Shown here: one piece after another, positions 470-64,000 of the stretch
Layout: every line of letters starts with the position of its first letter
Position numbering within the stretch: position 1 is the first letter of the stretch
DNA from: Microglena sp. YARC
Lineage: Eukaryota; Chlorophyta; Chlorophyceae; Chlamydomonadales; Chlamydomonadaceae
Direction: 5' to 3'
Length of the DNA stretch: 64,000 bases
Assembly: GCA_022414725.1 (NCBI GenBank)
Contig: CM039464.1
Coordinates: 26,825,566 to 26,889,565, forward strand
Notes under the pieces: generated by a model
What the model saw: the letters and a program-made list of their open reading frames with translations, nothing else
What the model was told of the DNA's origin: nothing
Databases searched by the model: none
Translations under genes and position numbers: made by a program

Positions 470-3400
470 GAGATGAGGTTGTGCAAGGACGTGGGAGCTC
501 CTGGAGTCAACAAAAGGGCTTTTAGTGCCTGGCTTCGTGGGCTTGCATACTTCGCTGCAGGGAACAACGCCCAAGCGATGAAGGTCAGGCCCCTATCTAC
601 AGCACTCTGACAACGATCATTTGTTTTAGTAAACTCTTATTACCCGTACACAATACGAAAAGCCTCTTGCGCTGGCTTTTGACTCCTTTCTCGCTTTTCT
701 ACATTGATAAGTACAAATTCCTGCCGCTTGAATTATCCCCCCCCCCCCCCACACACACACCCCACCTCACCCCGGGTATTCACCCTGGCGCCCACTTCTT
801 CTCATGTGCCAATTATCATTTACTCTTATGTTTACCGATATTTACTTGGCTACCGTAGTTTACATACACATTGTCATACATATATTTACCAGCTTTTTCC
901 TATCTTTCTACAGCTTCCTAGCTTATTATAGCTAGAATCCTAGCTATTTCTTAGTCATTACCTAGCTTCCTAGCCAAGTGCGTTCCATGACCAAATGACA
1001 ACATGTAAGTTACTTAATTCACGCAAGTAAGAACATCAGCAATCCGATATACTTCCTAACGAATGTCATAGTACGTGGTCACTAAGTAGCGCATGTCTTG
1101 CAGTATGGTGCATACTTGCCTATTTTATTTTAACGGTAGCTATTATTCGAGCTATAATTATATTATATTGTATTTTATTTGTTTTTGCCTCGCTTAGGCA
1201 ACAGGCGGAGAACAAATAATCCAGCCAGTCCATTGTCGGTTACCAACAGAAACCAACCAACCCAACGGATACCAACAGAAACCCAAACAACCAACCAACC
1301 CAGGTAGTCCATTCTCGGATACCAATATAAATCATGTATCCTGGATACATTGCAGGATGCTCGATATGCCACTGCATACTTGCCTCCGCCCTGCAGCGGC
1401 GGAGGACAAATGGCCCATGTGATACATACACAGTCCTCAACAGAGGCTCCCCCCCTTGGGCAACAAATGGGGCGTGGGCCAGAGCTAGGTGAGTGGAAGT
1501 CAAATCAGAGCCAGGTTTGTATGATTAAATTATCCCTATAGCACGAACTCAGACCCCCCCCCCCCCCCCCCTCCTTCCCGGTCGGACTGTAAAACGATTG
1601 TTTGGGGTTCAGTTCGTCAGTATTTTTTCGTTTTAGCCCCTCTTGTAGTCCTGTCAAGGTCAGTTAAGTCCCCTCAGCCTATTTGGCCTCCCCCTGGGCT
1701 GTAACAACTTCTGTACGTATGCAGGTTCCCAGGAAACAGCAGTCTCCAGCGCCCTGAAGCCTGCTGTCATGGCACTGCTCTCCGCCACTCTCGAGTGTGC
1801 AGACAACCTTTCTCTGGCAGCAGTCTACATGAGCAAGGTATCGTAATGGTCTATATGGTGGTTGGCCCCATTGAAAGCAATCGGGTTGGCCCCCTCAACA
1901 TCACGCCTTGTAATAAAGCGGGAGGTTGAGGACGTTGCAACTCCTAGAAAGAGTAGGCGCACTAATAAACGAGTTGATGCAAATACCTTCAGTTATAGAT
2001 AGGTCCCTATTATGGGCTTTGCCATTTAAAATAGAGGTTTGATTTTATTACAACGATAATGAAATTTGATGTGGCGGGCCTTATAACTTGAGTTCATAAC
2101 TTTCCGGTAATCATGGAAGTATGTTACAAAACCATGTAAAAATTCAAACTCAAATCTAAATGACCATACGAGCAGGCATTAGAAGAGGACGAACAGGAGA
2201 TTTCCTACAAGCTGAAACTGCAGAGGCTGGCAACTCGCCTGCAGCTGCGGCAGCAGCTTGCTCTTGCAGATGGAGGCAGCCGGGCCCTGGAGGAGCTTCT
2301 GATGATGGAGGATGAAGAGAAGCTACCCGAATTCAAGAGGAAACGTCCCAAGGTGATGAGCGAGTATATTCACAGGATATATGAAGAGATCGGATCAAAT
2401 ATTTTAATAGGAATAATTAGCTTTTTGTAGTTTTTTATCGTTCAGAAGAAGAAGCAAAACATATATCAGTCGGCCGTACGAAATATCATCTGCAAACGGT
2501 TAAACACCCAGAGCTGCACCATATAAAATCCTCTTCTTCTTGTGCTACAGTTTTACTACTACGACAAGTGGATGCGAGGACGCATCGCCGAACAGCTGCG
2601 CATTGGGGATGGTCATGGCATGAAGATAGACGACCCTGACAGGACTTCACTGCCTCTTCCTTCGATTCCTGAGGATTGCCAAGAACATGAACAGGGGCAT
2701 GTCTGTTTGCCAGCCGGGCACCCGACTCCGATGACTTCAGAGTTAAGCCCTTTCAAGCAGGCCTTGGTGTATGCCCTGCAAGGTCCTACCGAGGCAACGG
2801 ATGGGAGCTATCGGCAGAGCACGAGGGTCGATGCTGCTTGCAACGCTGTGGTTGACAAGCTACTTGCAATGGATGCAGATGACCTTGACCTCATGCTCAG
2901 CTATCCATCCGGCTTGAAAGGGCAGGTACATCATGATAGGTGGTAATGATGTGGATGATGGGTCGTGATGACGGGTGGGTGATGGTGATGGTGCTGATGC
3001 TGCTTGCAATGCTGTGGTTGACAAGCTACTTGCGATGGATGCAGATGACCTTGACCTCATGCTCAGATATCCTCCAGGCTTGAAAGGGCAGGTGCATCAT
3101 GATGTGTAGTGGTGATGGTGATACTGCTGCTTGCAATGCTTTGGTTGACAGTATACTTGCGATGGATGCAGATGACCTTGACCTCATGCTCAGATATCCA
3201 TCAGGCTTGAAAGGGCAGGTACATCGTGATGTGTAGTGGTGATGTGGATGATGAGTGGGTGATGGTGATGATGAGTGGGTGATGGTGATGATGGGTGGGT
3301 GATGGTGATGATGGGTGGTGGTGACGATAGATGGGTGATGGTGATGATGGGTGGCGATGTGGATGATGGGTGGTGATGTGGATGATGGGGGGGGTGATGG

Positions 3401-5570
3401 GGGGCGATGGTGATGATTGAGGCGAAATCCTTTTTATTTACAAACAAACTGATGCTTCTGGCTGTGGCGATAATAACGGTGGTGGATATGGTGATGGATG
3501 CAGATGACCTTGGCCTCATGCTCACATGCCCAGCAGGCTTGAAAGGACAGGTGGATCATGATGGGCTGGTGGTGATGGTCGTGATGGGCTGGTGGTATTA
3601 ACGAAGCTGTCAACACAACCAATATTTAATATGGCTTACACATGTCCACACACAGGCACTGGAGATGATAGTTGCAATGAAGGCGAATGGACTGGAGCAC
3701 TTTGTTCAAGAGTATCTACCAAGGAGGATGACTTGGGAGGAGACGCAAGCATTGACTGGATCAGGACCGGTGAGCACGGGTTGGTGGGTGGGTGAGCACG
3801 GTTGGGTTGGAAGGTTGGTGGGTTAGCACGGGTGGGTCGGTGGGTGGGCATGGGCGGGTGGGTTGGTGGGCGAGCACAGGTGGGTTGGTGGGTGGGGAGC
3901 CATCTACCCTGGTGTGTTAAACTGTCAGTGTAGACACCTGGTGATGTCTATTATCGGTCTGTGTTCGAACCCTGTCACAGACTACTAAGGAGGATGATTT
4001 GGGAGGAGACGCAAGCATTATCTGGATCAGGACCAGTGAGCAGGGATTGGTGGGTGGGTGAGCACAGGTGGGTTGGTGGGGAGGGGGCCATCTACTCAGG
4101 TACATTAAACTGTCGGTGTAGACACTTGGACATGTCTATAATCGATCTGCGTTTGAGCCCTGTCACATCCTCAGTGCGCCTACTCTTTTGTAGGAGTGGC
4201 AACGCCATTCTAACTGAATCCTCAGTGTCGCTGGTTTGTGTAGGGAGACTCACCTCCTGGGGTGAAAACCCTGTCAAAACTAAAACTAAAAAAACTCGCT
4301 GTTTTCCGTGGCTGTCGCACGGGAGGAAGTATTGCATTCTGCAGATAGTTAGATGCCGAGTTGCGGGCGTATAGAACCTTGTAACAATTATTCTTATTCT
4401 ACTCTGGTGCAGGGCAACAGAGAGCTGTTAGGACCCAATAGTGAAGGCCATGCTGGCAGAGAGGGGCAACTGCCCGGTGCTCATGGGGATGGTGGGCAGC
4501 CGGCTCTGCTAGCGATCTACAGTCACCTGATGGCGGAGGCTGCTGGCCAGTCTTTCAATGAGGAGATATCGAGCTGGGGCAACGTGCTCTGTCTTGAAGA
4601 CGGTGATGGTGCTAACTGGGGCAAGGTCCTCAGTCTTGAAGACGGTGATGGTGCTAGGGGGAGCAACGTCTGCTGTTTTGAAGACAGTGATGGTGATGGA
4701 GCTACAAGAAGGACCCCCGCCCCCATCATCATCAATGGCGATCGTGCTTCAACCTTGAGCGGGTGCATGGTGGCAGGAGATGAGGCCACTACGGGCAGGG
4801 TACAGCATACTCAACACAGGCACCAGGGCGACGACAAGAAACCAAACATGGAGGCCGTGGCATGTGCACAGCCATCAAGAGACAAGCAAGCGCCCAACAG
4901 GCAAGTGCCCAAGCCGGGTGAGGCCATGCCATGCGCACAGCCATATGGAGACAAGCAATCACCCAACAGGACAATGCTCAAGCCGGGTGAGGCCAGGAAA
5001 GCATTTATTCTACAGGCAGCTGGATCAGCATTGACTGCCTTGCGAGGGAGAGCCTTAGGGGAAGAAGTGGCTACTCATGTGGTATCTCACACACAGCAAG
5101 ACCCACGGGTGATAACACATCGTGGGCGCCTGGCTGAGTCTCTTATTAACCCCAGGGGTTCTCACCTAGTTTCAGCCCAGGATGAAGAGGAAGATGTGGC
5201 TAACGATCTCGTCTCTCACACACAGCAAGACCCACAGGTGATTACAAATAGTGGGCGCCTGACTGAGTCCCCTATTGACTCCAAGGATTCTCACCTAGTT
5301 TCAGCCCAAGATGAAGAGGAAGAAGCGGCTCATGATATTGTCTCCCACACACCTCAAGGCCAACACATGACTCCAGATAGTGGCCGCCTGACAGGCTCCT
5401 CAATTAGCCCTAGGGATTCACACCTAGTTTCAGCCCAGGATGAAGTACATGCACTTAAGCAGGACAACGTGTGCGTACATCAGACAGAGGTCTCATTGGG
5501 GAGGGACATCTCTGAAGTACCAGGTCGATTCCATGTCGCCACCATGGAAGAACTCACTGCTTTGGACTAG
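470..5570 (+). CDS. Uncharacterised protein, 3' six exons, acidic repeat-rich C-terminus
   Basis: The family is not recognised. Six exons join in phase 0 with GT-AG borders: 470-583, 1733-1837, 2176-2352, 2551-2925, 3656-3769 and 4413-5570 (TAG stop). They give 680 residues; the 5' end is unassigned or outside the window. Early exons are alpha-helical (GLAYFAAGNNAQAMK, then LKPAVMALLSATLECADN), suggesting a repeat or helical-bundle scaffold. Exon 3 is charged and coiled-coil-like, ending FKRKRPK. Exon 4 opens FYYYDKWMRGRIAEQLRIGD. Exon 5 contains EYLPRRMTWEETQAL. The last exon (385 residues) is low complexity, with three internal repeats: LEDGDGA units, two CAQP...DK...PNR...KPGEA units, and three units of about 40 residues ending SHLVSAQDE. 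The terminal-exon frame follows from phase continuity only. Donor-side copies of exons 4 and 5 lie in the following introns. The phase consistency and conserved-looking early exons argue for a real gene. Confidence 0.6.
1517..1708 (+). repeat. Family-5 interspersed repeat, long copy
   Basis: It runs from 'tgattaaattatcc' through a C tract and 'gattgtttggggttcagtt' to 'cccctgggctgtaacaac', about 190 bp. It ends about 25 bases upstream of the exon starting at 1733, so it contributes much of that intron's 3' end. Confidence 0.6.
2981..3552 (+). repeat. Three partial copies of the 3' end of exon 2551-2925, each with its donor
   Basis: The exon end (coding NAVVDKLLAMDADDLDL... to GLKGQ, then the donor gtacat) is repeated at about 2998-3092, 3126-3222 and 3490-3552. 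Each copy keeps the GGCAGGTRCATC or GGACAGGTGGATC donor context. The spacer is GATGGTGATGG-rich minisatellite. The copies diverge more with distance from the intact exon. They are intronic and need not be used for splicing. Confidence 0.8.
3983..4050 (+). repeat. Partial copy of exon 3656-3769 donor end
   Basis: The last ~50 bases of the upstream exon (coding RRMTWEETQAL) are copied, with changes, 270 bases downstream, including the 'ggatcaggacc(g/a)gtgagca' donor. The surrounding intron is a GGTGGGTTGGTGGG-type repeat. Confidence 0.75.
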
Positions 5571-10758: not shown

Positions 10759-13700
10759 AACACACACACACACACACACACACACAGGGTTGTCACCTTG
10801 GGCTTTGAGCTTCCCCAGGATGTCAAACTGACACACATGGCAGTCAAAATTACTTTTTGTATAGCCCCCCTAGCCCCCCCCCCCCCCCCCCTACCCCGTT
10901 CGCTGGTGTTTTCGAGGCCCCTTTGGACAGCTTCCTAAATCAAGCCGACTTCACGTACTTTTTTTTTTAACCATGAAGATTTACCAGCTCATGATATCAA
11001 CACCACACATTCACATGTCTGTTCCTGGTGCACTTTTTGTTCTGGTGCTATTGGTGCTGTTTGACATACACTTTTGTTCTGGTGCTTTTGGTGCTGTTTG
11101 ACGTACGCTTTTTCTTCTGGTGCCATTGGTGCTGTTTGACATACACTTTTTCTTCTGGTGCTATTGGTCCTGTTTGACATACACTTTTTCTTCTGGTGCT
11201 ATTGGTCCTGTTTGACATACACTTTTTCTTCTGGTGCTATTGGTGCTGTTTGACATACACTTTTGTTCTGGTGCTATTGGTGCTGTTTGACGTACACTTT
11301 TTCTTCTGGTGCTGTTGGTGCTGTTTGACATACACTTTTGTTCTGGTGCTCTTGGTGCTGTTTGACGTACACTTTTTCTTCTGGTGCCATTGGTGCTGTT
11401 TGACGTACACTTTTTGTTCTAGTGCTATTGGTGCTGTTTGACATACACTTTTTCTTCTGGTGCCATTGGTGCTGTTTGACTTACGAGGGGTGCTCTAATG
11501 TAGGGATCGGCATATCATATGATGTTGGCCAAAGAAGGGTATGATATCATATAATATCATACAAATTGCATCATATGATATTGTATTTAAATGGTAACTT
11601 GTGCCTAGTCAGACTGCCGACATCATATGATATTATATGATGACATGATATCATATGATACCATATTGCCGTTCCCTATGTATGTGCCTCGTTATGCGGT
11701 GTATGTACACTTATATGTATATAATATGTATATTTTATTTCACCATAATACGTATATTATTCATGTGTCTCTCTTGACGGGGTCAAGCCACAGGCATATT
11801 TATAGGGAACGGCAATATGATATCATATAATGCTGGGAGTCTGACTAGGCTCAAGTTACTATTATACACAATATCACATGATGCCATTTGTATAGTATTA
11901 AATGATATCATACTCGCCTTAGGTCGACATCATATGATATGCCGGTCCCTACATATTTGGAGCCCAATAGGGCACCAGGCTGGTGGAATCATCATCAACA
12001 TTATCAACATCAACATCAACATCATTATTGTCATCATCATCGTCACCATCCGCATCATCAACATTATCACCATCATTACCATGAGCATCATCGTCATCAA
12101 TATGATCACCATCAACATCGTCATCACCACCACCATTGTCATCCGCACCATCATAATTATCAGCAGCAGCACCACCTCCACCATTATCTTCATCGTCATC
12201 AACATCATCAACATCAACATCGTCAACATCAACATCATCAACATCAACATTGCAACATCAGCATCATCACAATCACCATTATCTAAATCCATTGCCTGTT
12301 AAATCATTGTGTTACAGGGAGAAAGCTTCGTCAGCGTTGTTCTTCAAGCATAACACCCAGCTTGGACCTCCTTACCAAGTGTTGATCGATACCAACTTCA
12401 TCAACTTCTCCATTAAGAACAAGGTACGTTGATGACTCCTCAACCTACCTCCCCAACCTGCCAAGTGCTGTTAGATACCAAATGCATCACCTTCTCTATC
12501 AAGAACAAGGTATGTTCGTGACTCCCCAGCCAACGAAGTGTTGATCGATACCAACTTCATCAACTTCTCCATCAAGAACAAGGTACGTTCATGACTCCCC
12601 AACCAACCAAGTGTTGATAGATACCAACTTCTCCTTTAACAGCAAGGTATGTTCATGACTCCCCTACCTACTAAGTGCTGATAGATACCAACTGCATCAC
12701 CTTCTCCATCAACAACAAGGTTCATGACTCCCCAACCAACCAATTGCATCACCTTCTCCATCAACAAAAAGGTAGGTTCATGATAACAAAGGAACAGCAC
12801 AGTACAGTACAGCAACTTTCTAACTATTTGGCTTACATGACTTCAGTAATTTTTTATTTTGTTGTCATTTTATTAAGCAACGCAATAGCATAGGAATATT
12901 ACTCCTCGCCTCACCATCACCATCATCACTACCACCATCACCACCATCACCATCACCACCACCATCACCATCACCGCCACCACAACCATCACCGCCACCA
13001 CCACCACCACCACCACCATGACCGCCACCATCACCACCACCATCACCGCCGCCGCCACCATCATCACCACCACCATCACCACCACCAATACTAATTCTTG
13101 ATGCAATGCAGTGGGTGTGGGCCTCGTGATTGTTCAAGGTTTCTTCACAGTCTTCGCTTCGAGAAGTAACTGTTTTTCAAAACCTAATTACGTTAGCCAA
13201 AATCTAGTTCCAACGAGCCATAATTTTGTTAGCAACTTGAAACCTCTCAAAATCTGTTTTTTGAGGTGTGAAATAGAACGTTTCAACAACCTTGTTGGAA
13301 ATTTTAGATGTTGTACACCAAGAGGTCATATAAACAAACATTGAACAAGCTTGGTGGGAGTTGTAGATGTTGTACACCAAGAGGTCATGTAAACAAACAT
13401 TGAACGACCCCGGTGGGTGATTTGTTTCAGCCCTATCCTGGTTGAAACCGACCTCTTATATGGACCCCCCACCCCCCTTCCTAATCTGGACCCTCCCTTC
13501 TTTATCTGGATCCCCCTTCCTTATCTTGACCCCCCCCCCCCCCCCCCTTCCTAATCTGGACTCCCCGTCTCCCCCCCCTCCTTCCTAATCTGGACCCCCC
13601 CCCTTCCTAATCTGCCCCCACCCCCTCCTTGCATGACGCCTCCAGATTGATTTGGTGCAAGGCATGGTGGACTGCTTGTATGCTGAGTGCCGCCCATGCA

Positions 13701-49719: not shown

Positions 49720-52700
49720 CGATTGTCCCCTGCATAACTCCTTGGGGTTCAACAACAAGTCAAAGGCTTGCTTGTGAAAGGCTTCATCAGCCCTAGCTCG
49801 GGCCCACGCGGCGGGCCACTTCTCTTGGTTGCCTCCCTTACCAACCTGTATGTATATATTTATAAACATTTCTGTATTTATATACTCACATTCCCCTCGC
49901 CACCTGTTGCGTAGTCCGTTGCCATGTCATCAAAGCCCTTCTCAAGCTGCTTTACCAACTTGTCGAAGAAGCCATGGGTGACCTCAGTTAAGCCAGTCAG
50001 ATTCTTGCTGAACTCCTGCACGGTACAGGTTGTATGTAAAAGGTACAACCTGTGCTACAAAAAAGGTAATGATAACGCCGGATGGGACGTGGTGTTAAGG
50101 GAGCCCGTCGTACGCGGGTGGGGAGCGGTCTCCTACCTCAACTGGACAAGCTACCATCGCGATTGACGACGACCTGCACCGCCAAGAGCGACCGAAGGGG
50201 GAGTCGAACCCCCGACTCTTCATTCTTAAAGTGAATTAGTCTACCACTAGACCAATATATATCACTGAAAGAGGCTTGGTTGTATATAGTATGTATACCA
50301 GGGTACTAAATTGGTCAGCGCTTAAAGCGCACTAACATAAAAATGGTCAGCGCTTAAAACGCACTAATATCAAATTGGTCAGCGCTTAAAGCGCACTAAC
50401 ATCAAATTGGTCAGCGCTTAAAGCGCACTAACATCAAATTGGTCAGCGCTTAAAACGCACAAACATCAAATTGGTCAGCGCTTAAAGCGCACTAACATCA
50501 AATTGGTCAGCACTTTGTAGTGCAAAAGGCGCAAAAACTGCGTGCTGAGCCCACAGGGGGTTGAAAGAACAACAAAAAGCGTTCGCGCGCGCTTTGGGTT
50601 TCGTGTAGAGTGGCGGTAGAGTGGCGGTAGAGTGGCGGTAGAGTGGCGGTAGAGCATAGGCCTCCAAGCATCACCCTTTGGGGGGGGTGAGCTAGTACCG
50701 CCCCCCCTTTGGGGGGGGGGGTGGTAACTCCAGGTACCTTCAAGTGGGCCACCAAGTGGCCCTTCCCTAAGGGAAGGTACTTGAAGGGAGGGAAGGAAGG
50801 GAGTAGTACCCTGCTGTATACAGGGTGTATGTGCACGAATTAACCTTTTAAAAGGGTATATAGGGTGCACCACCAAAATCACCCAAACCAACTCAGTCAG
50901 ATTCTTGCTGAACTCCTACACAATGCATTACGGGAAGTTGGAGCATTCGGGGGCAGTACACAATTGGGGAGTTCAAGCCTTCAGGGGCAGTACACAATCA
51001 CGAGTTGTATCATACAAGGTTCCAAATTGAAAATTCCTACGCCTTGCGACGGGGTGTGGATTATAGTAATTCAGTGTGAGTGTGGAGGTCACTGTGGGTG
51101 GGTGGATGCGTAGGTCAGGTACGAGTCAGGGTGGGTGAGTGGGTAGGTAGCATGAATTGGAATCGACAGTCCTAGGCCGCACTTCCTACCTGGACTTTTT
51201 CAGACCCCGTTCAGGCCCCATTTATGACAATTCTCCCAGAATTCTCACAATTCTCGGAATTCCAGACCTTATCCCAGGTATGTTCCACGATCTATGACAA
51301 GTTTGGAAAAACGAAAATCCAAATCATCAGCTGTATTGCTCTAGTTAATGCTCAAAGAGCGAGTGAGTTTGTTTGGTAGCTTGGCTTTGGCTTGGCTTTG
51401 GCTTGCTCTAGTTAATGCTCAAAGAGTGAGAGAGTTTGTTTGGTAGCTTGGCTTTGGCTTGGCTTTGGCTTGCTATAGTTAATGCTCAAAGAGTGAGTGA
51501 GTTTGTTTGGTAGCTTGGCTTTGGCTTGGCTTTGGCTTGCTATAGTTAATGCTCAAAGAGTGAGTGAGTTTGTTTGGTAGCTTGGCTTTGGCTTGGCTTT
51601 GGCTTGCTATTGTTAATGCTCAAAGAGTGAGTGAGTTTGTTTGGTAGCTTGGCTTTGGCTTGGCTTTGGCTTGACTTTGACCTTGGCTTGGCCTTTCGAA
51701 ACATGAAAATCGAAGTTGGGAGCATCGGGGCTACCTACCTACCTACCAGCCTATCTACTTGCCTGCCTGCTTACCTACCAACCTTCCTGCTCACCTACCA
51801 ACCTACTTGCCTGCCTGCCTACCGACTTGCCTGCCAGCGGACCAACCTACCAAACATAGAATAAGGCAATCACATACCTTGAAGTTGGGTGCATTGGGCT
51901 ACCTACCTACTTGCCTGCCTACCTACCAACCCACCATCGTACTTGCCTGCCAGCGGACCAATCTACCACAAACACAATAGGGGTAACCACATACCTGGAA
52001 GTTGGGTGCATCGGGGCTACCTAGCTACCTACCATCCTGCCTAACTACCTACATACTTACCTACCTGTCTACTTACCTGCCTGCCGATCTACCAACCCAC
52101 CTGCCTACCTACCATCATACTTGTCTGCCTACCTGCCAACCTGCCTGCCAGCGGACCAATCTACTATGCATACAAGGAGGCAATCGCATACCTGGAAGTT
52201 CGTTTAAAGTTCAGTTTATCAGAGTTTTTTTTAATTATTTACTGTTTATTTTTATTTTAGCTCCTCCTAATTCCAAGGTTGGGTATGTCTCTTTAGCCTA
52301 TTCGGCTACACCCTGGACTGTAACGAACAAACATACCTGGAAGTTGGGTGCGTTGGGGTGTCTGCCAACGACCTTTTTGAGGTCCCTCTCAGCTGATTCG
52401 TGCAAGCGCTCCAAGCTGCGTTCAGCATCACCCTGCAGGAATGTATGTATGTATGTATGTATGTATGTATGTATGTATGTATGTATGTATGTATGTATGA
52501 ACTAGTACATTGCCCGTGTGGCCTGTGGCCACACATACACACATCACCCCCACCCCAATCATAATAGGGTGGGGCTGGGTTACAGAATGGGCTACACATG
52601 TGTCCTCACCTCCACCCCTCTCATAAACACATTCATCATGTTTCCCCCACTTCAAATGCTGACTCATCTGTACCCCCCCACACACCCCCCCCTTCAACTC

Positions 52701-53804
52701 TGCCCAAACCTTGACCCACGCCCACTGTCAAATTAGCCTCACCCCTTAACCCGCTAACACACTCGTACTTCCCTACATCTCCTTTCCATTATTGATCTCC
52801 ACTCGGCCACTTTAGCAGTTGGGTTTAACAGATGCAATTATGATGTTTCCAGCTGAGTTCCAAACCTCGCAGACGTTAGGAAATGCGAAGACTTTTGGCA
52901 AATGCAAATGAACGTCTGCACGGTTTCAGACTGAGCTGGAAACATCTGAACTTGCGCAAGAACAAAGCTGCTTACCTGTAGCTTCCTCTTCGCACATAGA
53001 TACCTGGTTGGGCGTGCAAGCTGTTTCCCGAAAGGGCATTCGTTCAGTCAACTCAGTCACGCACTCGCTACGGCTCAGTGCGACGATAACCTTATCGTTG
53101 CATGGTGGGAGTGGTGTGGTGTGGGGGGGAGATCTTGAAGAGGCACTGCAAGCGGTGCAAGGAGCACACAGCAAGAAGGAAGCCGGAAGATGGTCGTAGG
53201 GTTGCAGGGACTTAGATCGTGCAGAGATACCATGAGCCGTGCGTGTGTCTTAGCTCGCAGGAAGATAAATGTATCAATACAGCCTGCAGAAAGGCTGGAG
53301 AATGGAAGTCAAATACCTTCAATCACGAATCAGGCGATGCGATAGCATAATGAGGTGACAAATATAAAAGATAGAATGAGCACTCAGGATACATGGGCGC
53401 TCAGGATGAATGAATAAGCGCTCAAAATGAATAAGCGCCCGGAATATGATGAGCGATCAGAGCAGATCGGGCGATGAGAACGAATGCGTGCTGGAAAAAT
53501 TGGATAGCACTCTATACAGCGGTAGTCTGACGCCTATGTCAGTGCGTCGGCGTGGCGCACCTCGTGGAACTGCCAGAAAATGCGTACAGTGCTGCAATTG
53601 TTAGGGGGGCCCCCCAACGAACGAACAAACGAAAAGTTCGCAAACTTTTTGCCTAGCAGCCATGTATTTTTACATATATATAGATGTATAGATGTATGTA
53701 TGTATGTATGTATGTATGTATGTATGTATGTATGTATGTATGTATGTATGTATGCATGTATGTATGTATGTATGTATGTATGTATGTATGCATACATGTA
53801 TGCA

Positions 53805-53853
<49 letters not shown>

Positions 53854-53856
53854 GCA

Positions 53857-53911
<55 letters not shown>

Positions 53912-56900
53912 ATGCATGCATGTATGCTGCACCAGTCCAGGGTCAGGCCAAATATGCTAAAGGCAATTGCCCAACCATGGGGATGGGGGTGCAAAAACAA
54001 AAAAATCCTGGTGAACTGAATCCCAAACAATTGTTTTACTGGCGGGGGTCCTGAGTGCCCGCTGCAGTGATAATTTAATTATACCTGCAGGAACTCGAAA
54101 AATGTACGTTGGCGTTCAGCCTCCTCCTTGCCCTCCCCCTCTTCTTGAAAGCTGTAGTAGCCGAAGCAGTAGGTCCATGACAGGATACGTCGGCAGTCGA
54201 TGATCTGCAAGCCGTGGTTCATGAGGAGGGGGAGGATGGGATGGGTGGGTGTTGCTGGGGTGTTGCATGGGGTGGGGTGGGGTGGTGCATGGGTGGTAGG
54301 TAGGGTGGTAGATGAGTAGGTAGCTGAAGGTGCAGGTTCTTGACAGGATACATCGGCAGTCGAGGATCTGCAAGCCGTGGTTCATGAGGAGGGGGAGGAT
54401 GGGATGGGTGGGTGTTGCATGGGGTGGTGGAAGGGATGGTGAATGGGGTGGGTGGGGTGGTAGATGAGTAGGTAGCTGAAGGAGCAGGTCCTTAACAGGA
54501 TACGCCGGCAGTCAAGGATCTGCAGGTCGTGGTGAATGGCAAGGGCTAGGATGGGATGGATGGGGTGGTGCATGGGGTGGATGGGGGTGTCGGATGGGGT
54601 AGGTGGGATGTGGCATGGGGTGGTGGATGGGGGTGGGTGGGGTGGTAGATGAGTAAGTAGCTGAAGGAGCAGGTCCTTAACAGGATACGTCGGCAGTCAA
54701 GGATCTGCAGGTCGTGGTGAATGGCAAGGGCAAGGATGGGATGGATGGGGTGGTGCATGGGTGGATGGGGGGTGTCGGATGGGGTGGGTGGGTGGTGATG
54801 GGGTGGTGAATGGGGTTGCAGCTGTAGTAGCCGAAGCTATAGGTCCATGACAGGATACGCCGGCAGTCGATGATCTGTAGGTCGTGGTGAATGGCAAGGA
54901 CAAGGATGGGATGGATGGGGTGGTGGCATGGGGTGGATTGGGGGTGTCAGATGGGGTGGGTGGGGAGGTGCATGGGTGGCAGCTGAGGTAGAAGCCGAAG
55001 CTATAGGTCAATGACAGGATACGTCGGCAGTCGATGATCTGCAGGTCGTGGTGAATGGCAAGGGCTAGGATGGGATGGATGGGGTGGTGCATGAGAGTGT
55101 TGGATGGGGGTGGTAGATGAGTAGGTAGCTGAAGATGTAGGCTGTGGAGAATGGCAAATGGCAAAGGATGGGGTGGATGGAGTAGTTCATGTGGTGGTGG
55201 ATGGGGTGGTCAAAGAGTCGGATGGGGGTGGTGGATGGGTGGGTGGGTGGGGTAGTGGATGGGGTGGTGAATGAGTCGGATGGGGGTGGTGGATGGGGTG
55301 GTGAATGAGTCGGATGGGGTGGTGGGATGGGGTGGTGAATGAGTCAGATGGGGGTGGTGGATGGGGTGGTGAATGAGTCAGATGGGGTGGTGAATGGGGT
55401 GGATGGGGTGGTGAATGAGTCGGATGGGGTTGTGGATGGGGTGGATGGGGTGGTGAAAGAGTCGGATGGGGGTAGTGGATGGGGTGGATGGGGGTGGGGT
55501 GGTGGATGGGTGGGTGAATGAGTCGGATGGGGGTGGTGGATGGGGTGGGTGGGGTGGGGTGGTGCATGGGGTGGTGAATGAGTCGGATGGGGGTGGTGGA
55601 TGGGGTGGGTGGGGTGGGGTGGTGCATGGGGTGGTGAATGAGTCGGATGGGGTGGTGGATGGGGTGGGTGGGGTGGAGTGGTGGATGGGGTGCGTGAATG
55701 GGGTGGATGGGGGTGGTAGATAGGTGGGTGGGAGTGGTGGATGGGGTGGTGAATGAGTCGGATGGGGGTGGTGGATGGGGGTGGTGGATGGGGTGGGTGG
55801 GGTGGGGTGGTGGGTGGGGGTGGTGAATGAGTCGGATGGGGGTGGTGGATGGGGTGGTGCATGTGGTGGTGGATGGGGTGGTGAATGGGGTGGATGGGGG
55901 TGGTAGATAGGTGGGTGGGAGTGGTGGATGGGGTGGTGAATGAGTCGGATGGGGGTGGTGGATGGGGTGGGTGGGGTGGGGTGGTGCATGGGGTGGTGAA
56001 TGAGTCGGATGGGGGTGGTGGATGGGGTGGGTGGGGTGGGGTGGTGGGTGGGGTGGTGAATGAGTCGGATGGGGTGGTGGATAAGGTGGTGCAAGTGGTG
56101 GTGGATGGGGTGGTGGATGGGGTGGTGAATGAGTCGGATGGGGGTGGTGGATGGGGTGGTGCATGTGGTGGTGGATGGTGGTGGTGAATGGGGTGGATGG
56201 GGGTGTGGATGGGGTGGTGAATGGGGTGGTCCATGTGGTGGTGGATGGGGTGGTGAATGAGTCGGATGAGGGTGGTGGATGGGGGTGGTGCATGTGGTGG
56301 TGAATGGGGTGGATGGGGTTGGTAGATAGGTGGGTGGGGTTGGTGCATGGGTTGGTGGATGGGGTGGCAGCTGAAGCTGCAGGTCCATGACAGGATACGT
56401 TGGCAGTTGATATGTTGATACCACGTTAGGCTGAACCTGCCCGGTGTCCCCCAGAGGGGGGAAGCTAGCACCCAGTGAGCCAGCACCCACAAGCCAGATC
56501 TCCTATACACTAAACCCTAAACCCTATAACCTAAACCCGAGGAGATCTGGCAAGTGGGTGCTGGCTCACTGGGTGCTAGCTTCCCCCCACCGGTGTCCCC
56601 CTAGCCTCCACCGACGTCCCGACTTGCAGGCTAAAGGGAATAGCCCTACCGTGACAGGAGGGGATTCAAACGAAAAAGCTCTGATGAACTGAACCCCAAA
56701 CGATCGTTTTCTTGCAGGGGCCCTGAGAGTGTTCGTACCGCCAGGGCAGCGAAGTCAGGATTCCTGCTGAGTGGGACGGCTACTTGGATTCAACCTCAAT
56801 TTGGACCCACTTCATGTTCGCAAACGGAGAGAGAAATTACTAATATCGAGCCTGTTGTGGACGAAGCCCTCCCATGTGGGGATGCTGAAATGATCTTGAA

Positions 56901-59900
56901 AGGGAAACACTTCCCCGACCTGCGCACCATGTTCACAAACCCTACAGCAGCCTGCACTCTGTTCAGGTTGTTAAACAGGTGTTAAGGGTGTTCAACACCT
57001 GTTTCCGTACAACATTGGTTAAACATGTAGTTGTCGAACAGGTGTTTAACAACCTGAGCACCTGTTTAACAACCAGAACAGGTGCAGGCTGCCGTAGGGA
57101 CGTGCCTGCGGCATTCAGGTTGAGATTGACATCCGAACTGCTCCCTCCTCCATGCAGGTGAAACTGACTGGACATATGACGTTTAACAGTTATGATGACA
57201 TCTTGCGAAACGCTAAGCACTCGGCACCAGGGCTTGAGTAAACCTCCGACATGCACCAACATGCACCAACATGCCGGCCAGGAGGTAGTTCCGGCATGTT
57301 CGTGTTCTGAGTGCTTAGCGTTTTGCAGGATGTCATCATAACTGTTTAACGTGAAAATGGGCAACAACGGGCAACGGCCAACTTTGGTTGGACTGACAAG
57401 CAACAACGAGCAACGGGCAACGGACTGACGGGTTTAGGGTTTAGGGGTTTAACGGGCAACGGCCAACAAGCAACAAGCAAACTGGGGGGCACCAGAAGCA
57501 GCATCAGAAGGGCAAGGGCTACCTTCAGCCCTACGGACCAGATTGAGCTGGTCCGTCTCAGGCTGGGGGGGTACGCCTTGCGGCAGCCTGCAACTGTTCA
57601 GGTTGTTAAACAGGTGTTCAGGTTGTTAAACACCTACATATTTAACCAATGATGTACATAAACAGGTGTTTAACAAGCTGAACAGGGTGCAGGCTGCCGT
57701 AGGGACGGGCTGGCGGGTCACATGCTGGTGGGTCACATGCTGGTGGGTGATATGCTGGTGGGTTGCAAGACCTCACTGCGCACGCTGACCATGCCTATGC
57801 TACATACCAGTTCCAGTACAAGCAAAAGTCTGGCCAACCCTTATCGAGGGAGACCACTACCGAGCTTAGAACCTGTGCTACAAGTGCCATGGCCTCGTGT
57901 ACCCAAGCAGAGTTGTGTACACTAGGCCCATGGCATTTGTAGCACAGGTAGCCTCTTTCAGTTATATACATTGGTCTAGTGGTAGACTAAGTCACTTTAA
58001 GAATGAAGAGTCGGGGGTTCGACTCCCCCTTCGGTCGCTCTTGGCGTTGCAGGTCGTCGTCAACCGCGATGGTAGCTTGTCCAGTTGAGGTAGGAGACCG
58101 CTCCCCACCCGCGTACGACGGGCTCCCTCGCCCCATCAGGCGTTATCATTACCTTTTTTGTAGCACAGGTTGTAAGCTCGGTAGTGGTCAACCGTCTCCC
58201 TCGGAAAAGCGTGGCCATCGTTCTGCGTGTACTGGTACTGGTACTAAGTACTGGTACTTAGCTTAGGCACGGTCGGCTTGAGCTGTGAGGTCTTGCGACC
58301 CACCAGCCTGTGACCCGCCAGCCCGTATCCCCCCAGCCTGCGACAGCCCAGCTCGATCTGGTCGGTAGGGCTTACAGTAGCCCGTTCCCTGATGAAGCTT
58401 GGTAGTGGTCAAACGACTCCCTCGGAAAGGGATGACCATCGTTCTGCTTGTCCTGGCCTTCAGAAAGAAAGCATTGGCGCGGTCGGCTTGCGCAGCCCAA
58501 CTCTGCTCGGGTACACGAGGCCATGGCACTTGTAACGTAAGTTGTAAGCTCGATAGTGGTCTCCCTCGTGAAGGGCTGGCCATACTTCTGCTTGTACTGG
58601 TAATTAGCATAGGCGCGGTTGGCTTGCGCAGCGAGGTCTTGCGACCCACAAGCATGTGACCCACCAGCATGTGACCCTCCAGCTCGTATTCCCCCAGCCT
58701 GCGACAGTCCAGCTTGATCTGGTCCGTAGGGCTTACGGTAGCCCGTTCCCTGATTAGGCTCGGTAGTGGTCAAACGTCTCCCTCGGAAAGGGTTGACCAT
58801 CGTTCTGTGTGTCCTGGCCCGTCAGAAAGAAAGCATAGGCGCGGTCGGCTTGTGCAGCGAGATAATGCGACCCACCAGCATGTGACCCACCAGCCCGTCC
58901 CTACGGCAGCCTGCACCCTGTTCAGCTTGTTAAACAGGTGTTCAGGGTGTTCAACACCTGTTTATGCACATCATTTGTTAAGCATGTAGGTACTTAACAA
59001 TCTGAACAACTGTTTAACAAGCTGAACAGGTGTAGGCTGCCGTAGAGCGTATCCCCCAAGCCTGCGACGGACCAGCTCAATATGGTCCGTAAGGCGTAGC
59101 CCCTTTCAGTGATATACAATGGTCTAGTGGTAGACCAGATAGCTTGAGGATGAAGAGTCGGGGGTTCGACTCCCCCTTCGGTCGCTCTTGGCGTTGCAGG
59201 TCGTTGTCAACCGCGATGGTAGCTTGTCCAGTTGAGGTAGGAGACCGCTCCCCACCCGCGCACGACGGTCTTCCTTAACACCACGCCCCACCAGGCGTTA
59301 TTATTACCTTTTTCCGTAAGGCGTAAGGTAGCCCTTGCCCTTCTGATGCAGCTTCTGGTGCCCCCCAGCACGCTTGTTGCCCGTTGGCTTATCACGGTCA
59401 GGGTACTACTAAGCACGCGCGGCAGCGCGGTGCCTCACTGCCTTTTTGAGCCCCTCTGCGCGTTTCGCGCAGTTTTTTCAACCCCCTGTAGGCGCAGCGC
59501 GCAATTTTTGCGCTTTTTGCACTAAATAGCGCTGACCAATTTGACGTTTGAGCGCTTTTTGCGCTGGCCAATTTGGCAAGAAATGGTACCCTGATCACGA
59601 TTCCCCTCTATGTTGATATCTTGAAGAAAAAAGGAAAAGCAAAACCAGGGTTTTCGCAAACCTCTCCAACCCTCTTCAACCCTCTTCGTTGCGCAATGAT
59701 GAGGGTCGAAGAGGTTAACGCAGACCCTGGTTTTGCTTTTCCTTTTTTCTCCAAGATATCATCGGAAGGGGAAACGTGAAAAGCCCAATCTGTTTCACCT
59801 GCACAGAGGAGGGAGCAGTTCGGATGCCAGTCTCAACCTGAGTGCCGTTGCATGTGTGACGTTAAACAAATGATCACGTTTAACAGTTATGATGATATCT

Positions 59901-60609
59901 TGCGAAACGCTAAGCACTCGGAACCAGGGCTCGGGTAAACCTCCGACATGCACAAACATGAACAGACATGCACGAACATGCCGGCCAGGAGGTATTTCCG
60001 GCATGTTTGTGCATGTTCGTGCATGTTGGAGGTTTACCCAAGCCCTGGTTCCGAGTGCTTAGCGTTTCGCAGGATGTCATCATAACTGTTTAACGTGATC
60101 ATACAGTATGTATTTATGTATGTTACAGTCCAGGGGTAGGCCAAATAGGCTAAAGGGACTTCCCCAACTGTTAGGAAGAGCTTAAAAAGAAAAAACACTG
60201 ATGAACTGAACCTAGACAATCGTTTAACCGACTGGGGCCCTGAGTTTGTGCTACAGTGATAATTTAATTCTACAATCATCTCATAATTTATTTCTACAAT
60301 CATTTAATTATACATACAGTAGTCGCAATACCCCCTTGTGGTCCACTACTCTGTCAATCCCACAGACCGTTATCACGTTGGTCAAAAAATGGGAAGCGAT
60401 GCCGAAGGGGGGATGCCGAAGGGATCCTGACGAGACAATCTTCCCTGACCTGCGCACCTGCCCTACAGCAACCTGCACCTGCTCAGGTTGTTAAACAGGT
60501 GTTCAGGTCATTAAAGGATACATATACATATATATATATATGTATATATATATATATGTATATATATACTCCTGAGGAGTTTGTCCTTCGTGTTGTGGGG
60601 GTGTTATGT

Positions 60610-60657
<48 letters not shown>

Positions 60658-63600
60658 CGGGGGGGGGGGGGGGGGGGGGGGGTATTGTGTTTATGTTTTA
60701 TGTCAAAAAGTAAGTTTTACCTGGTTCCAGGCGTCTGTGATGAACTTGAGCTGCGAAATGGGCAATGAGCTGGTCTCACTTAGCGACCCTAACGTGTCAG
60801 CGCCGACATTGCTGGCATCTAGAATGGCCTGCAGTGGAACAGCATGGTGTGGATGAAGGGTCTTGTTTTGTGGGTGAATGCTCCTGTTGGTGTCTTCTCC
60901 TGTTGATGAGGGGTCTTGTTTTGTGGGTGTGTGTGCTCCGGTTGGTAAGAAGCAGAGCTCTGTCTCACGCAGCTTCTCTACCGTGTCAGCACTCACTTTG
61001 CTGGCATGTAGAACGGCCTGCAGTGGAACAGAATGATATGGATGAAGGGTCTTGTTTTGTGGGTGTATGCTCCTGTGGGTGTGTGCTCCTGTTCGTGAAG
61101 GATCTTGTTTAGTGGGTGTATACTCCTGTTGGTGAAGGATCTTCGGGGCGGGGCGGGGCGGCGGGGCGGGGTGGGGTGGATGGAGGGTCTTTTTTAGTGG
61201 GTGTGTGCTCCTTTTGGTAAAGTGCAGAGCTCCATCTCACGCAGCTTCTCTATCGTGTCAGCACTCACTTTGCCGGCATCTACAATGGCCTGCAGTGGAA
61301 TATAATGGTATGGGTGGAGCTGGGGTGGAGGGTCTTGTTTTGTGGGTGTATGCCCCTGTGGGTGAAGGGGGAGGTTTGCATCACTCAGCTTCTCTAACAA
61401 GTCGGTGAAGTGCAGAGTAGAGCTTTACTCAGCGTTCCTAACATTTCAGCACTCACATTGCCGGCATCTAGAATGGCCTGCAGTGGAACATAATGATACG
61501 GATGAAGGGTCTTGTTTTGTGGGTGTATGCTCCTATGGTTGAAGGATCTTGTTTGGTGGGTGGGTGCTCCTGTGGGTGAAGTGCAGAGCTTTGCCTCACT
61601 CAGCTTCTCTAACAAGTTGGTGAAGTGCAGAGTAGAGCTTTACTCAGCGTTCCTAATGTGCCGGCGCTGACTTTGCTGGCATCTAGAATGGCCTGCAGTG
61701 GAACAGCATGGTATGGCTGGAGGGTCTTGTTTGTGGGTGTATGCTCCTGTGGGTGAAGAGAAGAGTAGAGCTTTACACATAAAGAACACGAAAGAAACAG
61801 CTTACTTTTTATGAAAACCCTTGATCTTTGAGGTCCACCAACAACCAAACAAACCCCCACCAACAACCTGACCCCCACATCGCCACATCCACACCCACAC
61901 TGCCAACCCGACCCCCACACCGCCACACCCACACCACCAACCCGACTCCCCCACTGCCACACACACCAACACACCCACACAACCACCCACACCCACCCAC
62001 CCAACCACATTATTCATCATAGAGGTCAAGGACTACAGACTACCCAGACCTAGATAAGCATGGTGTGCGTAAATTGAATTGAACTAAATTGTTACATGGT
62101 TTTGCAGCTTGTTCTGTGCTGCTCACACCGTCCAATTATATAGTATATATTATTATTCGAATACCCCCCACCCCCCCCTTCCAATTCCAACTCCCCCGTC
62201 CCGTCCCATTCCGTCCCGTCCCATCCCCTCTCCAATTCCAAGTCCCCCGTCCCGTTCCGTCCCGTCCCGTCCCGTCCCTCATCCAATCCCCCCTCCCGTC
62301 CCGTCCCATCCCCTCTTCCAATTCCAAGTCCCCCATCCCGTCCCGTCCCCTCTCCCAATTCTAAGTCCCCCGTTCCTTCCCGTCCCGTCCCGTCCCGTCC
62401 GGTCCCATCCCCTCTTCCAATTCCAAGTCCCCAGTCCCGTCCCGTCCTGTCCCGTCCCGCCCCTCTTCCAATTCCAAGTCCCCTGTCCCGTCCCGCCTTG
62501 TCATGTCCCCTCCCTCTTCCAATTCCAGGTCCTCCGCCCCGTCCCGTCCCGCTTCCAATTCCAATTCCCCTGTCTCGTCTCGTCCCGTCCTGACCCCTCC
62601 CTCTTCCAATGCTAAGTTCCCTGTCCCGTCCCGTCCCATCCCGTCCCCAACCCCCTCCAATTCCAAGTCCCCACCTCTTCCAATTCCAAGTCTCCCTGTG
62701 CGATACCCGATACCCACATAAACCAGGGAGCAGACTTAGTGGATAGGCATGCACAAATCCAAGCTTGCTCGAGCAAGTTTCATTACAATCAGCTTGTTAA
62801 TGTGTTCTTGAGTGTTATTAAAGTTTGATTCAAATTACCAGGAAACCAAAACAGCAAAGATGCATAAAATATAACAGAAGCACAAAATAGCACAGAAGCA
62901 CAAAGTACAAAATATCATAACATGCAAAATATCACAGATGCACAAAATAACACAAATGTACAAAATGCAAAACAGCAAAGATGCACAGACAAAAAATAGC
63001 ATAACATGCAAAATAGCACAGAAGCACAAAGTACAAAATATCATAACATGCAAAATAGCACAGATGCACAAAATAACACAAATGTACAAAATGCAAAACA
63101 GCAAAGATGCACAGACAAAAAATAGCATAACATGCAAAATAGCACAAATTCACAAAATAAAAAATATCATAACATGCAAAATAGCACAGATGCACAAAAT
63201 AAAACAGATCTACAAATGCAAAATAGCGAAGATTCATACAATATAACATACGGACAAAATAGCACAGAAGCAAAAAATGAAAAATAGAACAGATTCACAA
63301 AATAGAACAAATGTTCTAAATGCACAATAGCAAAGATGCACAAAATATAACAGATGCAAAGATGCGCAAAATGCAAAAAAGCAAAGATGCACACACACAA
63401 AAACAGAAGCACAAAATAACACAAATCTACAAAATGCATAACAGCAAAGATGCATTACATAGCACAGATGCACAAAATGCAAAATAATACAAAATATAAC
63501 AAATGCACAGATGCTAAATAGCACAAAATATAAGAGATGCACAGATGCACAAAATGCAAAAAAACAAATAGCAGCGATGGAAACCCACCTTGTCTCTGGC

Positions 63601-63756
63601 CTTTTGATGGGCATCCCAGCGTTCAAAGTAGTGCATGTAGCGCTCAAGAGACTGCTTGGCATTGTCTCGCCTTTTTGCGGCCACGATATCTAGGTTCTTG
63701 GCGGCATCATACCTATGCGGGGTTGGATGTGTGGGGGCGTATGTGTGCATGTGTGT

Positions 63757-63807
<51 letters not shown>

Positions 63808-64000
63808 GGGGGGGGGGGGGCTCGCCTTGCAGCCTTAATATCTAGGTTCTTGGCGGTATCATACCTATGCAGGGTTGGGTGGGGGTGGGGGTGGGGTGGG
63901 GGTGGGGGGGCTCCCCTTGCAGCCTTAACATCGAGCAGCAAGCATCTACATATTGTAATAACTTGGACTACACTTGTTTACCTGTTGCAGTTGTACATCG
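49720..64000 (-). CDS. RBR2: paralogous ARIADNE-type RBR ligase, 3' half
   Basis: The gene enters from the right edge, so only the end of RING2 onward is seen. Exons: 63982-64000 (YNCN, R split), 63589-63712, 60721-60828, 54085-54204, 52337-52432, 49890-50015 and probably 49720-49845. They correspond one-to-one with RBR1 exons 7 (end) to 12, with equal lengths except exon 8 (two codons shorter). Examples: [78 protein letters not shown]. All frames are open and splice sites intact, so it looks functional. The next exon (VGKGGNQEKWPAAWARARAD.., after a 44-bp intron) has no counterpart in RBR1, and no RanBP2 finger is found. The protein may continue into GATA-finger exons. Introns hold junction copies, a SINE, MITEs and a 1.1-kb minisatellite. 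Confidence 0.85.
50036..50275 (-). mobile_element. tRNA-derived SINE, copy 1
   Basis: The tRNA-like head (50190-50262, minus strand) has an A-box-like TGGTCTAGTGG and the B box GGTTCGACTCC. The ~150-bp body ends 'accttttttgtagcacaggt'. The acceptor stem does not pair, so it is not a working tRNA gene. It lies ~20 bp upstream of the RBR2 exon 50015 acceptor. Confidence 0.75.
50299..50813. mobile_element. hAT-like MITE, 515 bp, with internal 32-bp amplification
   Basis: Ends CAGGGTACTAA and GTAGTACCCTG; flanks ATGTATAC and CTGTATAC (7 of 8). Seven 32-bp units ('ttggtcagcgcttaaagcgc' + 'actaacatcaaa') enlarge the left end. Downstream (50892-51010) lie remnants of an exon 12 acceptor copy. Confidence 0.85.
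51340..51690 (+). repeat. 67-bp tandem repeat, 5 units
   Basis: 'gttaatgctcaaagagtgag' + 'tgagtttgtttggtagcttg' + 'gctttggcttggc' at a 67-bp period within an RBR2 intron. Confidence 0.92.
51715..52200 (-). repeat. Partial copies of the RBR2 exon 52337-52432 donor junction
   Basis: Minus-strand 'gatgcacccaacttccagg' + tatg recurs near 51990-52012 and 51870-51895, and in decayed form at 51715 and 52190, among 'cctacctaccaacctgcctg' repeats. It mirrors the RBR1 arrangement after exon 11. Confidence 0.8.
52200..52325 (+). repeat. Family-5 repeat next to an RBR2 donor
   Basis: 'aagttcagtttatcagag' to 'ctacaccctggactgtaac'. It sits between the true donor (52336) and the first junction copy, as in RBR1 (32325-32430). 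Confidence 0.7.
52436..52498 (+). repeat. (ATGT)n at the RBR2 acceptor
   Basis: 'atgtatgtatgtatgt' directly precedes (minus strand) the acceptor of exon 52337-52432. RBR1 has the same (CATA)n tract (31910-32080) before its exon 11, so it predates the duplication. From 52500 to 53690 I see only C-rich and unique intron sequence. Confidence 0.8.
53690..53930 (+). repeat. (GTAT)n and (TGTC)n microsatellites
   Basis: Perfect tetranucleotide runs; Met/Tyr/Cys- and Ser/Val-rich frames are artefacts. A family-5 repeat (53931-54084) follows and abuts the exon 10-equivalent donor. Confidence 0.95.
54320..55145 (-). repeat. Five or six partial copies of the RBR2 exon 54085-54204 acceptor end
   Basis: Minus-strand 'ctgcagatc(a/c)tcgactgc' followed by ~40 exon bases (ILDCRRILLRTCSFSYL and similar) occurs near 54365, 54520, 54703, 54875 and 55033, and once more at 56370-56412. 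The period is ~150-180 bp. The copies vary between IID and ILD and merge into the 'ggatggggtggt' satellite. Confidence 0.9.
55180..56330 (+). repeat. 1.1-kb 'gatggggtggtgaatgagtc' minisatellite
   Basis: Units of 'gtggtggatggggtggtg' and 'aatgagtcggatgggg' repeat through the tract. The long Pro/His/Ser/Thr frames (up to ~390 codons on the minus strand) are repeat shadows. It lies between junction copies, in an intron of RBR2. Confidence 0.93.
56455..56588. mobile_element. Hairpin element with telomere-like loop
   Basis: Arms of ~48 bp ('gaagctagcacccagtgagc' ... and its inverse 'gctcactgggtgctagcttc') enclose a ~35-bp loop with ctaaaccctaaaccctataac. 'ccggtgtccccc' occurs on both sides (56441 and 56591), consistent with insertion. 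Confidence 0.8.
57179..57353. mobile_element. Family-6 hairpin MITE, 175 bp
   Basis: TIR 'acgtttaacagttatgatga' and inverse 'tcatcataactgtttaacgt', extended to ~48 bp ('cgctaagcactcgg'). Interior 'catgcaccaacatgc' repeats. Same family as 59874-60098. Confidence 0.85.
57950..58175 (+). mobile_element. tRNA-derived SINE, copy 2
   Basis: tRNA-like head 57966-58035 with the same A and B boxes as copy 1, preceded by 'ctctttcagttatatacatt'. The body runs to 'attaccttttttgtagcaca'. Confidence 0.75.
59101..59318 (+). mobile_element. tRNA-derived SINE, copy 3
   Basis: tRNA-like head 59112-59183; the anticodon-arm region differs from the other copies while the B box and body are conserved. It ends 'gcgttattattaccttttt'. 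Confidence 0.75.
59399..59593. mobile_element. hAT-like MITE, 195 bp
   Basis: Ends CAGGGTACTACTA and ATGGTACCCTG; flanks ATCACGGT and ATCACGAT (7 of 8). Shares the 'gcgctgaccaatttgacg' interior with other copies in inverse orientation. Confidence 0.87.
59595..59779. mobile_element. Hairpin MITE related to family 6
   Basis: Arms 'tgatatcttgaagaaaaaag' and 'cttttttctccaagatatca', then 'gcaaaaccagggtttt' and inverse, with outer tips tcacga/aacgtga. It begins within the target duplication of the adjacent hAT MITE. Confidence 0.75.
59874..60098. mobile_element. Family-6 hairpin MITE, 225 bp
   Basis: TIR 'tcacgtttaacagttatgat' and inverse 'catcataactgtttaacgtga'-type end, arms extended through 'cgctaagcactcggaacc' and 'aacctccgacatgca'. 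Nearly complete self-complementarity. Confidence 0.88.
60121..60275 (-). repeat. Family-5 repeat
   Basis: From 'ttacagtccaggggtagg' via 'ctgatgaactgaacc' to 'ctacagtgataatttaatt'. It is followed by (TA)n and GT/poly(G) (60530-60682) just before the RBR2 exon 60721-60828 donor. Confidence 0.75.
60950..61700 (-). repeat. Four partial copies of the RBR2 exon 60721-60828 acceptor end
   Basis: Minus-strand 'ctgcaggcc.ttctagatgc' + 'cagcaaagt.agtgctgaca' and up to ~60 exon bases lie at about 61018, 61290, 61477 and 61692. Spacers contain 'acccacaaaacaagaccct', which also precedes RBR1 exon 9. Each copy has gained a GTGAGT inside the exon-derived part. Confidence 0.9.
62160..62700 (+). repeat. 'cccgtcccgtcccgtcc' / 'tccaattccaagtcccc' minisatellite
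   Basis: About ten ~45-60 bp units in RBR2 intron 8; Arg/Gly-rich minus frames and Pro/Ser-rich plus frames are artefacts. Confidence 0.92.
62850..63570 (-). repeat. 'ttttgcattttgtgcatctg' repeats next to the RBR2 exon 8 donor
   Basis: Many 18-25 bp units, including two near-identical ~120-bp blocks. RBR1 intron 8 has the same type at 27540-27680 and 28175-28330, interrupted there by the family-6 MITE. It is therefore ancestral to both paralogues. Confidence 0.88.
63818..63935 (-). repeat. Partial copies of the RBR2 exon 63589-63712 acceptor end
   Basis: Minus-strand 'cataggtatgataccgccaa' + 'gaacctagatattaaggctg' lies at about 63825-63868, and an older copy at 63915-63935, upstream of the intact exon. 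GT/poly(G) runs separate them. Confidence 0.85.

Follow-up and report, generated by a model that had tools for sequence, protein, structure and literature searches.

How do introns come to hold copies of their own splice junctions, and are the junctions themselves the target of whatever copies them? We address this question in a stretch of 64,000 nucleotides from the 568 Mb genome of the green alga Microglena sp. YARC (contig CM039464.1, positions 26825566-26889565; hereafter, “the window” means this whole stretch), which contains the FCF1 gene, two paralogous genes for RBR ubiquitin ligases (RBR1 and RBR2), and an unnamed gene. A first-pass annotation had claimed that junctions in these four genes were copied, together with part of their exon, into the neighboring intron, that this geometry follows from tandem duplication across exon borders, and that the process may be a genome-wide mode of intron expansion that also creates decoy splice sites. 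Our analysis bears out the copies, their geometry, and the decoys, and shows that tandem duplication is at least as frequent away from splice sites as at them. The reading that we consider highly probable is that junction copies arise wherever a widespread process of tandem duplication happens to cross an exon border. Such copies are abundant and apparently tolerated.

Junction copies and their geometry

A blastn search for junction copies, run on both strands for RBR1, RBR2, and FCF1 and on one strand for the unnamed gene, returned direct, border-spanning copies at 15 of the 15 junctions named in the first-pass annotation, in each case in the intron facing the copied border (Table 1). The copies hold exon as well as intron bases, and for the three genes searched on both strands only direct copies were listed; the RBR2 exon 8 acceptor lay outside this two-strand comparison, and its copy comes from a further search. 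Exon borders of RBR1, RBR2, and FCF1 were set from homologues; FCF1 was identified by homology to solved Utp24/FCF1 chains, and the nearest named relatives of RBR1 among the best 120 of 1434 homologues are chlamydomonad algae. A purpose-written protein-to-genome spliced alignment reproduced 12 of the 13 RBR1 exons that had been set by hand, with borders within one base; it missed exon 13, which stands outside the multi-gene counts below. The unnamed gene (at 2-5 kb) gave no match in a Pfam search, and while its exon numbers follow the first-pass annotation, its borders are based on GT positions and open frames alone.

The genome was also searched with the E. coli proteins GltB, GcvP, ClpB, and CarB, which were picked as queries regardless of junction copies. 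The resulting sample comprises 15 genes on six contigs, including RBR1, RBR2, and FCF1 from the window, together with two regions out of thirteen picked at random. A single query accounts for eight of the 15 genes, all of them ClpB/Hsp100 paralogues. From 174 modelled introns (two from FCF1), 39 were dropped because a neighboring exon had an alignment score below 35, leaving 135 to be counted.

Geometry was scored on direct matches with at least 20 exonic bases in the flanking introns, with overlapping matches of one array counted separately. Among 321 such exon-copy matches, 274 span the border facing the intron, 43 are internal to the exon, three include both borders, and one spans the far border; none is inverted. 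The comparison of border-spanning with exon-internal copies had been set as a test beforehand, and it comes out at 274 versus 43. As a control, one random intron from a differently named gene was taken for each exon side (270 sides; for RBR1 this could be an intron of RBR2), and it yielded no matches at all. Once overlaps are removed, 232 copies remain, spread over 95 of the 234 junctions of 117 introns (46 acceptors and 49 donors). The copies are thus direct and face the border from which they derive, and this preponderance of facing-border matches, with no inverted ones, points to tandem duplication across borders, as the first-pass annotation had argued.

Table 1. Genes and junction copies in the window (positions counted from the first base of the window; exon numbers of FCF1 exon 3 and of the unnamed gene as in the first-pass annotation)
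Feature	Position	Strand	Basis or remark
FCF1 exon 3	12318..12423	+	Homology to FCF1/Utp24 and border placement; donor copied downstream
RBR1, Ariadne-type RBR ubiquitin ligase gene	18680..38790	+	13 hand-set exons
RBR2, RBR1 paralogue	49890..64000	-	Convergent with RBR1; 5' exons outside the window
Unnamed-gene exon 4 donor (GT at 2926), copies	3046..3588	+	Exon assignment without homology support
Unnamed-gene exon 5 donor, copy	3982..4045	+	Exon assignment without homology support
FCF1 exon 3 donor, five copies (33-57 exonic bases each)	12461..12783	+	blastn
FCF1 exon 4 acceptor, copy (92 exonic bases; in-frame stop inside)	13571..13737	+	blastn
FCF1 exon 5 acceptor, copy	15060..15186	+	blastn
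FCF1 exon 5 donor, copy	15678..15728	+	blastn; absent from first-pass annotation
RBR1 exon 4 donor, copy (10 exonic, 36 intronic bases)	20081..20126	+	blastn
RBR1 exon 7 acceptor, ten copies	24125..24955	+	blastn
RBR1 exon 8 acceptor, four copies (three once overlaps removed)	26419..27351	+	blastn
RBR1 exon 9 donor, copy	30648..30697	+	blastn; absent from first-pass annotation
RBR1 exon 10 acceptor, two copies, in frame and open to true exon	31291..31511	+	blastn
RBR1 exon 11 donor, copy	32297..32349	+	blastn; weaker second copy at 32671-32696
RBR1 exon 12 donor, one copy (86 exonic, 6 intronic bases)	34644..34735	+	blastn
RBR1 exon 13 acceptor, two copies	38179..38408	+	blastn
RBR2 exon 12 acceptor, short copy	50894..50921	-	blastn; absent from first-pass annotation
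RBR2 exon 11 donor, two short copies	51872..52016	-	blastn; absent from first-pass annotation
RBR2 exon 10 acceptor, five copies	54320..55109	-	blastn
RBR2 exon 9 acceptor, four copies	60962..61755	-	blastn
RBR2 exon 8 acceptor, one copy	63821..63891	-	blastn

RBR1 and RBR2 share an identical exon layout, with exon mismatches of 6-14% depending on codon position, and their copied junctions coincide only in part.

Tandem duplication at and away from junctions

We counted a point as spanned when a direct local duplication (E<=1e-4, within 3 kb, microsatellites masked) extended at least 12 bases to each side of it. Across the 15 genes, such duplications span 97 of 270 junctions (36%; 47/135 acceptors and 50/135 donors), compared with 44.2% of 114,480 non-junction points in introns and 12.3% of 19,449 in exon interiors. 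Inverted duplications span 0 of the 270 junctions and 5.2% of intron points, and the chance level of the same search can be read from block-shuffled sequence, where 0.2% of points are spanned, and from eleven E. coli stretches, where 0.6% are. The ratio of junction to intron spanning is 0.81 (36% versus 44%; gene bootstrap 0.66-1.00; 135 introns). An earlier count on 115 introns gave 38/115 acceptors and 39/115 donors against 40.9% of intron points, with 34-44% of points spanned at 50, 100, 200, and 300 bases from the border; with RBR1 and RBR2 left out (nine genes), the figures are 31/93 acceptors and 37/93 donors against 42.1%. In the two random regions, 92.7% of 4,593 and 54.9% of 8,974 non-microsatellite points are spanned. 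Because junctions are spanned no more often than intron points, we regard them as border cases of a general duplication process, with no special status as targets. In the window, 9/20 acceptors and 2/20 donors are spanned. The corresponding shares are 34% for intron points outside microsatellites (28,664 points) and 28% for unassigned points (24,560), so that junction duplication there is far above chance and, taken together, no higher than the local background.

Later copies in local pairs account for 25.9% of 145,662 intron bases, and microsatellites for a further 16.0%; the later-copy share grows with intron length (Spearman 0.47). With a quarter of intron bases in later copies, introns do grow by local duplication. 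The median intron length is 811 bases, compared with 198-343 in six core-Reinhardtinia species (PMC8226300). The proposal of genome-wide intron expansion survives in the sense that duplication affects many loci, in 15 genes on six contigs, and contributes much intron sequence; it finds no support in the narrower sense of introns growing specifically by copying their own junctions, given the ratio of 0.81 and the heavier duplication of the random regions.

Tandem arrays with a period of at least 20 bases number 10.7 per 10 kb in 276 kb of sequence, with a median period of 58.5 bases and a median of 2.55 copies. In ten young two-copy arrays the overhang is 2-24 bases (median 12), compared with a median of 0 for simulated blunt duplications, which suggests that duplication arises between short direct repeats. 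We propose that a widespread process, probably initiated at such repeats via slippage or microhomology-mediated copying, would create short direct tandem duplications (~20-200 bases per unit, usually as 2-3 copies) in introns and intergenic DNA alike. Where a unit straddled an exon border, an intact exon would remain at one end and the partial copy would stay in the intron, upstream for an acceptor and downstream for a donor. The copies would then drift, and introns would lengthen and gather decoy sites. The ends of a few introns hint at a related event: in 4 of 129 introns the two ends share, in register, an identical stretch of 10-20 bases, versus 0.11 expected for runs of at least 10 bases. 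These four introns, one in GOGAT1 (L017:4920-5671) and one each in GOGAT2, RBR2, and a ClpB gene, may be recent intron births and are candidates on sequence grounds.

Three further observations were made along the way. One random 10 kb region (L037, G000:C1:49500242-49510241) is masked as short-period repeat over 54% of its length, and 93% of its remaining points are spanned. CarB-like exon matches fall into two sets, at G000:C5:5331353-5373463 (42 kb) and C6:4050077-4064341 (14 kb), which form a ready pair for comparing intron growth. Finally, rbcL has four uninterrupted matches (on G000:C996, C1833, and C2356, the two on C996 being oppositely oriented) and several further ones with many stop codons (C2018, C764, C2110); these appear to represent plastid DNA and pieces of it at other sites.

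Fate of the copies and competing explanations

Retention of GT/AG, mismatches, and site scores were counted in 117 of the 135 introns. The splice dinucleotide is retained in 206 of 232 copies (AG in 107/121 acceptor copies, GT in 99/111 donor copies), which upholds the earlier suggestion that duplication creates decoy splice sites. If the copied site were used, a frameshift would follow from 65 acceptor and 58 donor copies, a stop from 32 and 28, and an open in-frame extension from 10 and 11, respectively (14 acceptor copies lack AG, 10 donor copies lack GT, and 4 donor copies are unplaced); in all, the reading frame would be broken by 183 of the 204 placed, site-intact copies and left open by 21. 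Copy offsets do not clearly favor multiples of three (division by three leaves 0/1/2 in 35/29/26 acceptor copies and 21/30/21 donor copies), 80/164 copies have indels, and 15/164 contain a stop. Site scores of donor copies equal those of real donors (median difference 0.00; 64/107 at least as high), and those of acceptor copies are lower than the real site (median -1.16; 41/121 at least as high).

Copy drift looks largely neutral. Mismatches between exon and copy amount to 8.9/6.5/15.6% at codon positions 1/2/3 and 15.2% on the intron side, which is the pattern predicted for a copy that changes along its whole length and an exon that changes mostly at third positions. The GT/AG dinucleotides differ at 6.2%, versus 7.7% at codon positions 1 and 2 (p=0.28), so that in these copies we found no selective loss of GT/AG and, if anything, the reverse. 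Most copies are 5-25% different from the exon end, and many carry indels and private variants. The FCF1 exon 3 copies have common variants that are not in the exon, and in a tree of the exon 10 copies, drawn to see whether these predate the RBR1/RBR2 split, those of RBR1 cluster and those of RBR2 are mixed (two arrays were examined for homogenisation of inner units against the edge unit).

How splicing might disregard so many sites is a separate matter. Copies of a whole exon were found for 2 of 113 exons, whereas stretches of equal length within each gene's own introns predict 16.4; copies of one border are not depleted (65 versus 45.5 expected). The two exons with whole copies measure 38 and 71 bases and lie in repetitive DNA, where the gene models are doubtful. 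Acceptor copies precede the real site and donor copies follow it, at about equal frequencies, which argues against simple first-come use. Our best guess, weakly supported and unproven, is exon definition, under which a lone copied site, with no partner across the exon, would be ignored. It is conceivable, although we would not expect it, that the spliceosome is effectively blind to one-sided copies, even those with full-strength sites, and that copies with both exon sites are removed by selection. If so, this genome would be a natural saturation experiment on splice-site choice: a site would be recognised only together with its partner on the other side of the exon, and this in a green-algal lineage argued to use intron definition.

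Several results weigh against the picture drawn so far. In a stricter subset of copies, with 20 or more bases on either side, GT/AG has changed less often than expected (14/328 versus 438/5866, p=0.029; with one copy per junction, 3/150 versus 233/3025, p=0.006), either because some copies could be kept or because the alignments could be prone to end at mismatches. Within the window alone, acceptors and donors are unlike, as the counts above indicate. The microhomology signal comes from the ten arrays only. The whole-exon deficit drops to 2 versus 4.5 without multi-copy arrays and to 0 versus 0.1 in single-pair regions, so that exon definition is suggested and no more; moreover, a Volvox splicing study favors intron definition for Volvox and Chlamydomonas, where introns are shorter (PMC4378016).

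A different account would make junctions the preferred target, with a process linked to splicing or exon ends copying them and serving as the main route of intron growth. The predominance of border-spanning matches (274/321), the sheer frequency of copies (232 at 95/234 junctions), and the window acceptors (9/20, versus 34% of intron points) would fit it. However, any tandem duplication that reaches an exon from the intron must span the border, the spanning rate of junctions is slightly below that of intron points, positions 50-300 bases into the intron are equally duplicated, and the random regions are spanned at 55% and 93%. The conserved exon half of a junction also eases detection, which biases the comparison toward this account, and still no support emerges; we rate it as quite improbable. 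The insertion of exon fragments through RNA-mediated copying or a mobile element could leave target-site duplications, which the four introns with matching ends also fit, but the copies lie in their own intron, in direct orientation, with adjoining intron sequence and facing the correct border, and none appeared in the other-gene intron drawn for each exon side. This origin is scarcely credible. Errors of assembly deserve mention, since tandem repeats are known to trouble assemblies, the copies are known from one assembly, and two of the RBR2 donor copies match the exon end at 96-99% identity. False duplications are expected to be near-identical, though, whereas most copies have the divergence, indels, and private variants described above and occur in 15 genes on six contigs, so that an artefact is very unlikely.

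The copies might instead be functional, as alternative or recursive splice sites under selection. Their intact dinucleotides, the donor scores that match the real site, the 21 open in-frame extensions, and the shortage of GT/AG changes in the stricter subset could all be read in this way. So could a database protein, P0001, which is evidently a model of RBR1 from this very genome (several exons match the window at 100%): relative to RBR1 (window 25018-38790), it contains five segments derived from junction copies (of exon 8, exon 10 twice, exon 12, and exon 13). Yet P0001 also lacks part of RBR1 exon 7 and hence looks mispredicted; decoys seem to mislead gene prediction. Most placed, site-intact copies would moreover produce a frameshift or stop, offsets show no clear multiple-of-three preference, indels are common, and acceptor copies are the weaker sites. 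We consider a function for the copies unlikely, and favor the view that they are by-products of tandem duplication running across exon borders.

Implications and known systems

If the proportions found here hold genome-wide, a third of junctions have close, mostly dinucleotide-intact copies nearby, and the sequence around a site cannot alone separate real from false. The rule of splice choice that is used instead could be read by counting RNA molecules. Local duplication also offers a plain, neutral route to longer introns and raw material for new introns and exons. For annotation the message is a warning, as one database protein model already holds five decoy-derived segments.

We found no genome-wide report of copied junctions in an alga in the literature, of which our coverage was partial, with most subscription journals outside it. 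Related cases are known. In the potato RdRp gene, a tandem duplication across an intron-exon boundary gave rise to a new intron (PMC4974935). The type of duplication is the same as here, and in both cases the splice signals are copied from a parental junction; the difference is that an existing intron lengthens in our alga, although the four introns whose ends match are candidate cases of gain. For Drosophila, new intron positions have been attributed to intron sliding or exon duplication, with 5/31 assigned to duplication within coding sequence (PMC2891723). There, too, tandem duplication supplies alternative splice sites in or near exons, but the cases are few and introns were shifted or created, whereas here they are lengthened.

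The closest parallel is provided by the “mirages” of amphioxus, which are tandem repeats across exon-intron boundaries in the Adh3 and globin genes (PMC3087553). Their units measure 150-160 bases in the globin genes and 10-72 in Adh3, sizes similar to ours; they are described from few loci, where reverse transcription PCR shows regular splicing and haplotypes differ in copy number (PMC3087553). As in amphioxus, the repeats that we describe are direct and contain both exon and intron sequence, affect 5' and 3' borders (50 donors and 47 acceptors, of 135 each), and retain AG or GT in many, not all, copies. Unlike the amphioxus mirages, ours occur in a green alga, involve 36-41% of the sampled junctions, and are known from genome sequence alone. 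The structure itself is thus already known from amphioxus; what looks new is its scale and its green-algal host.
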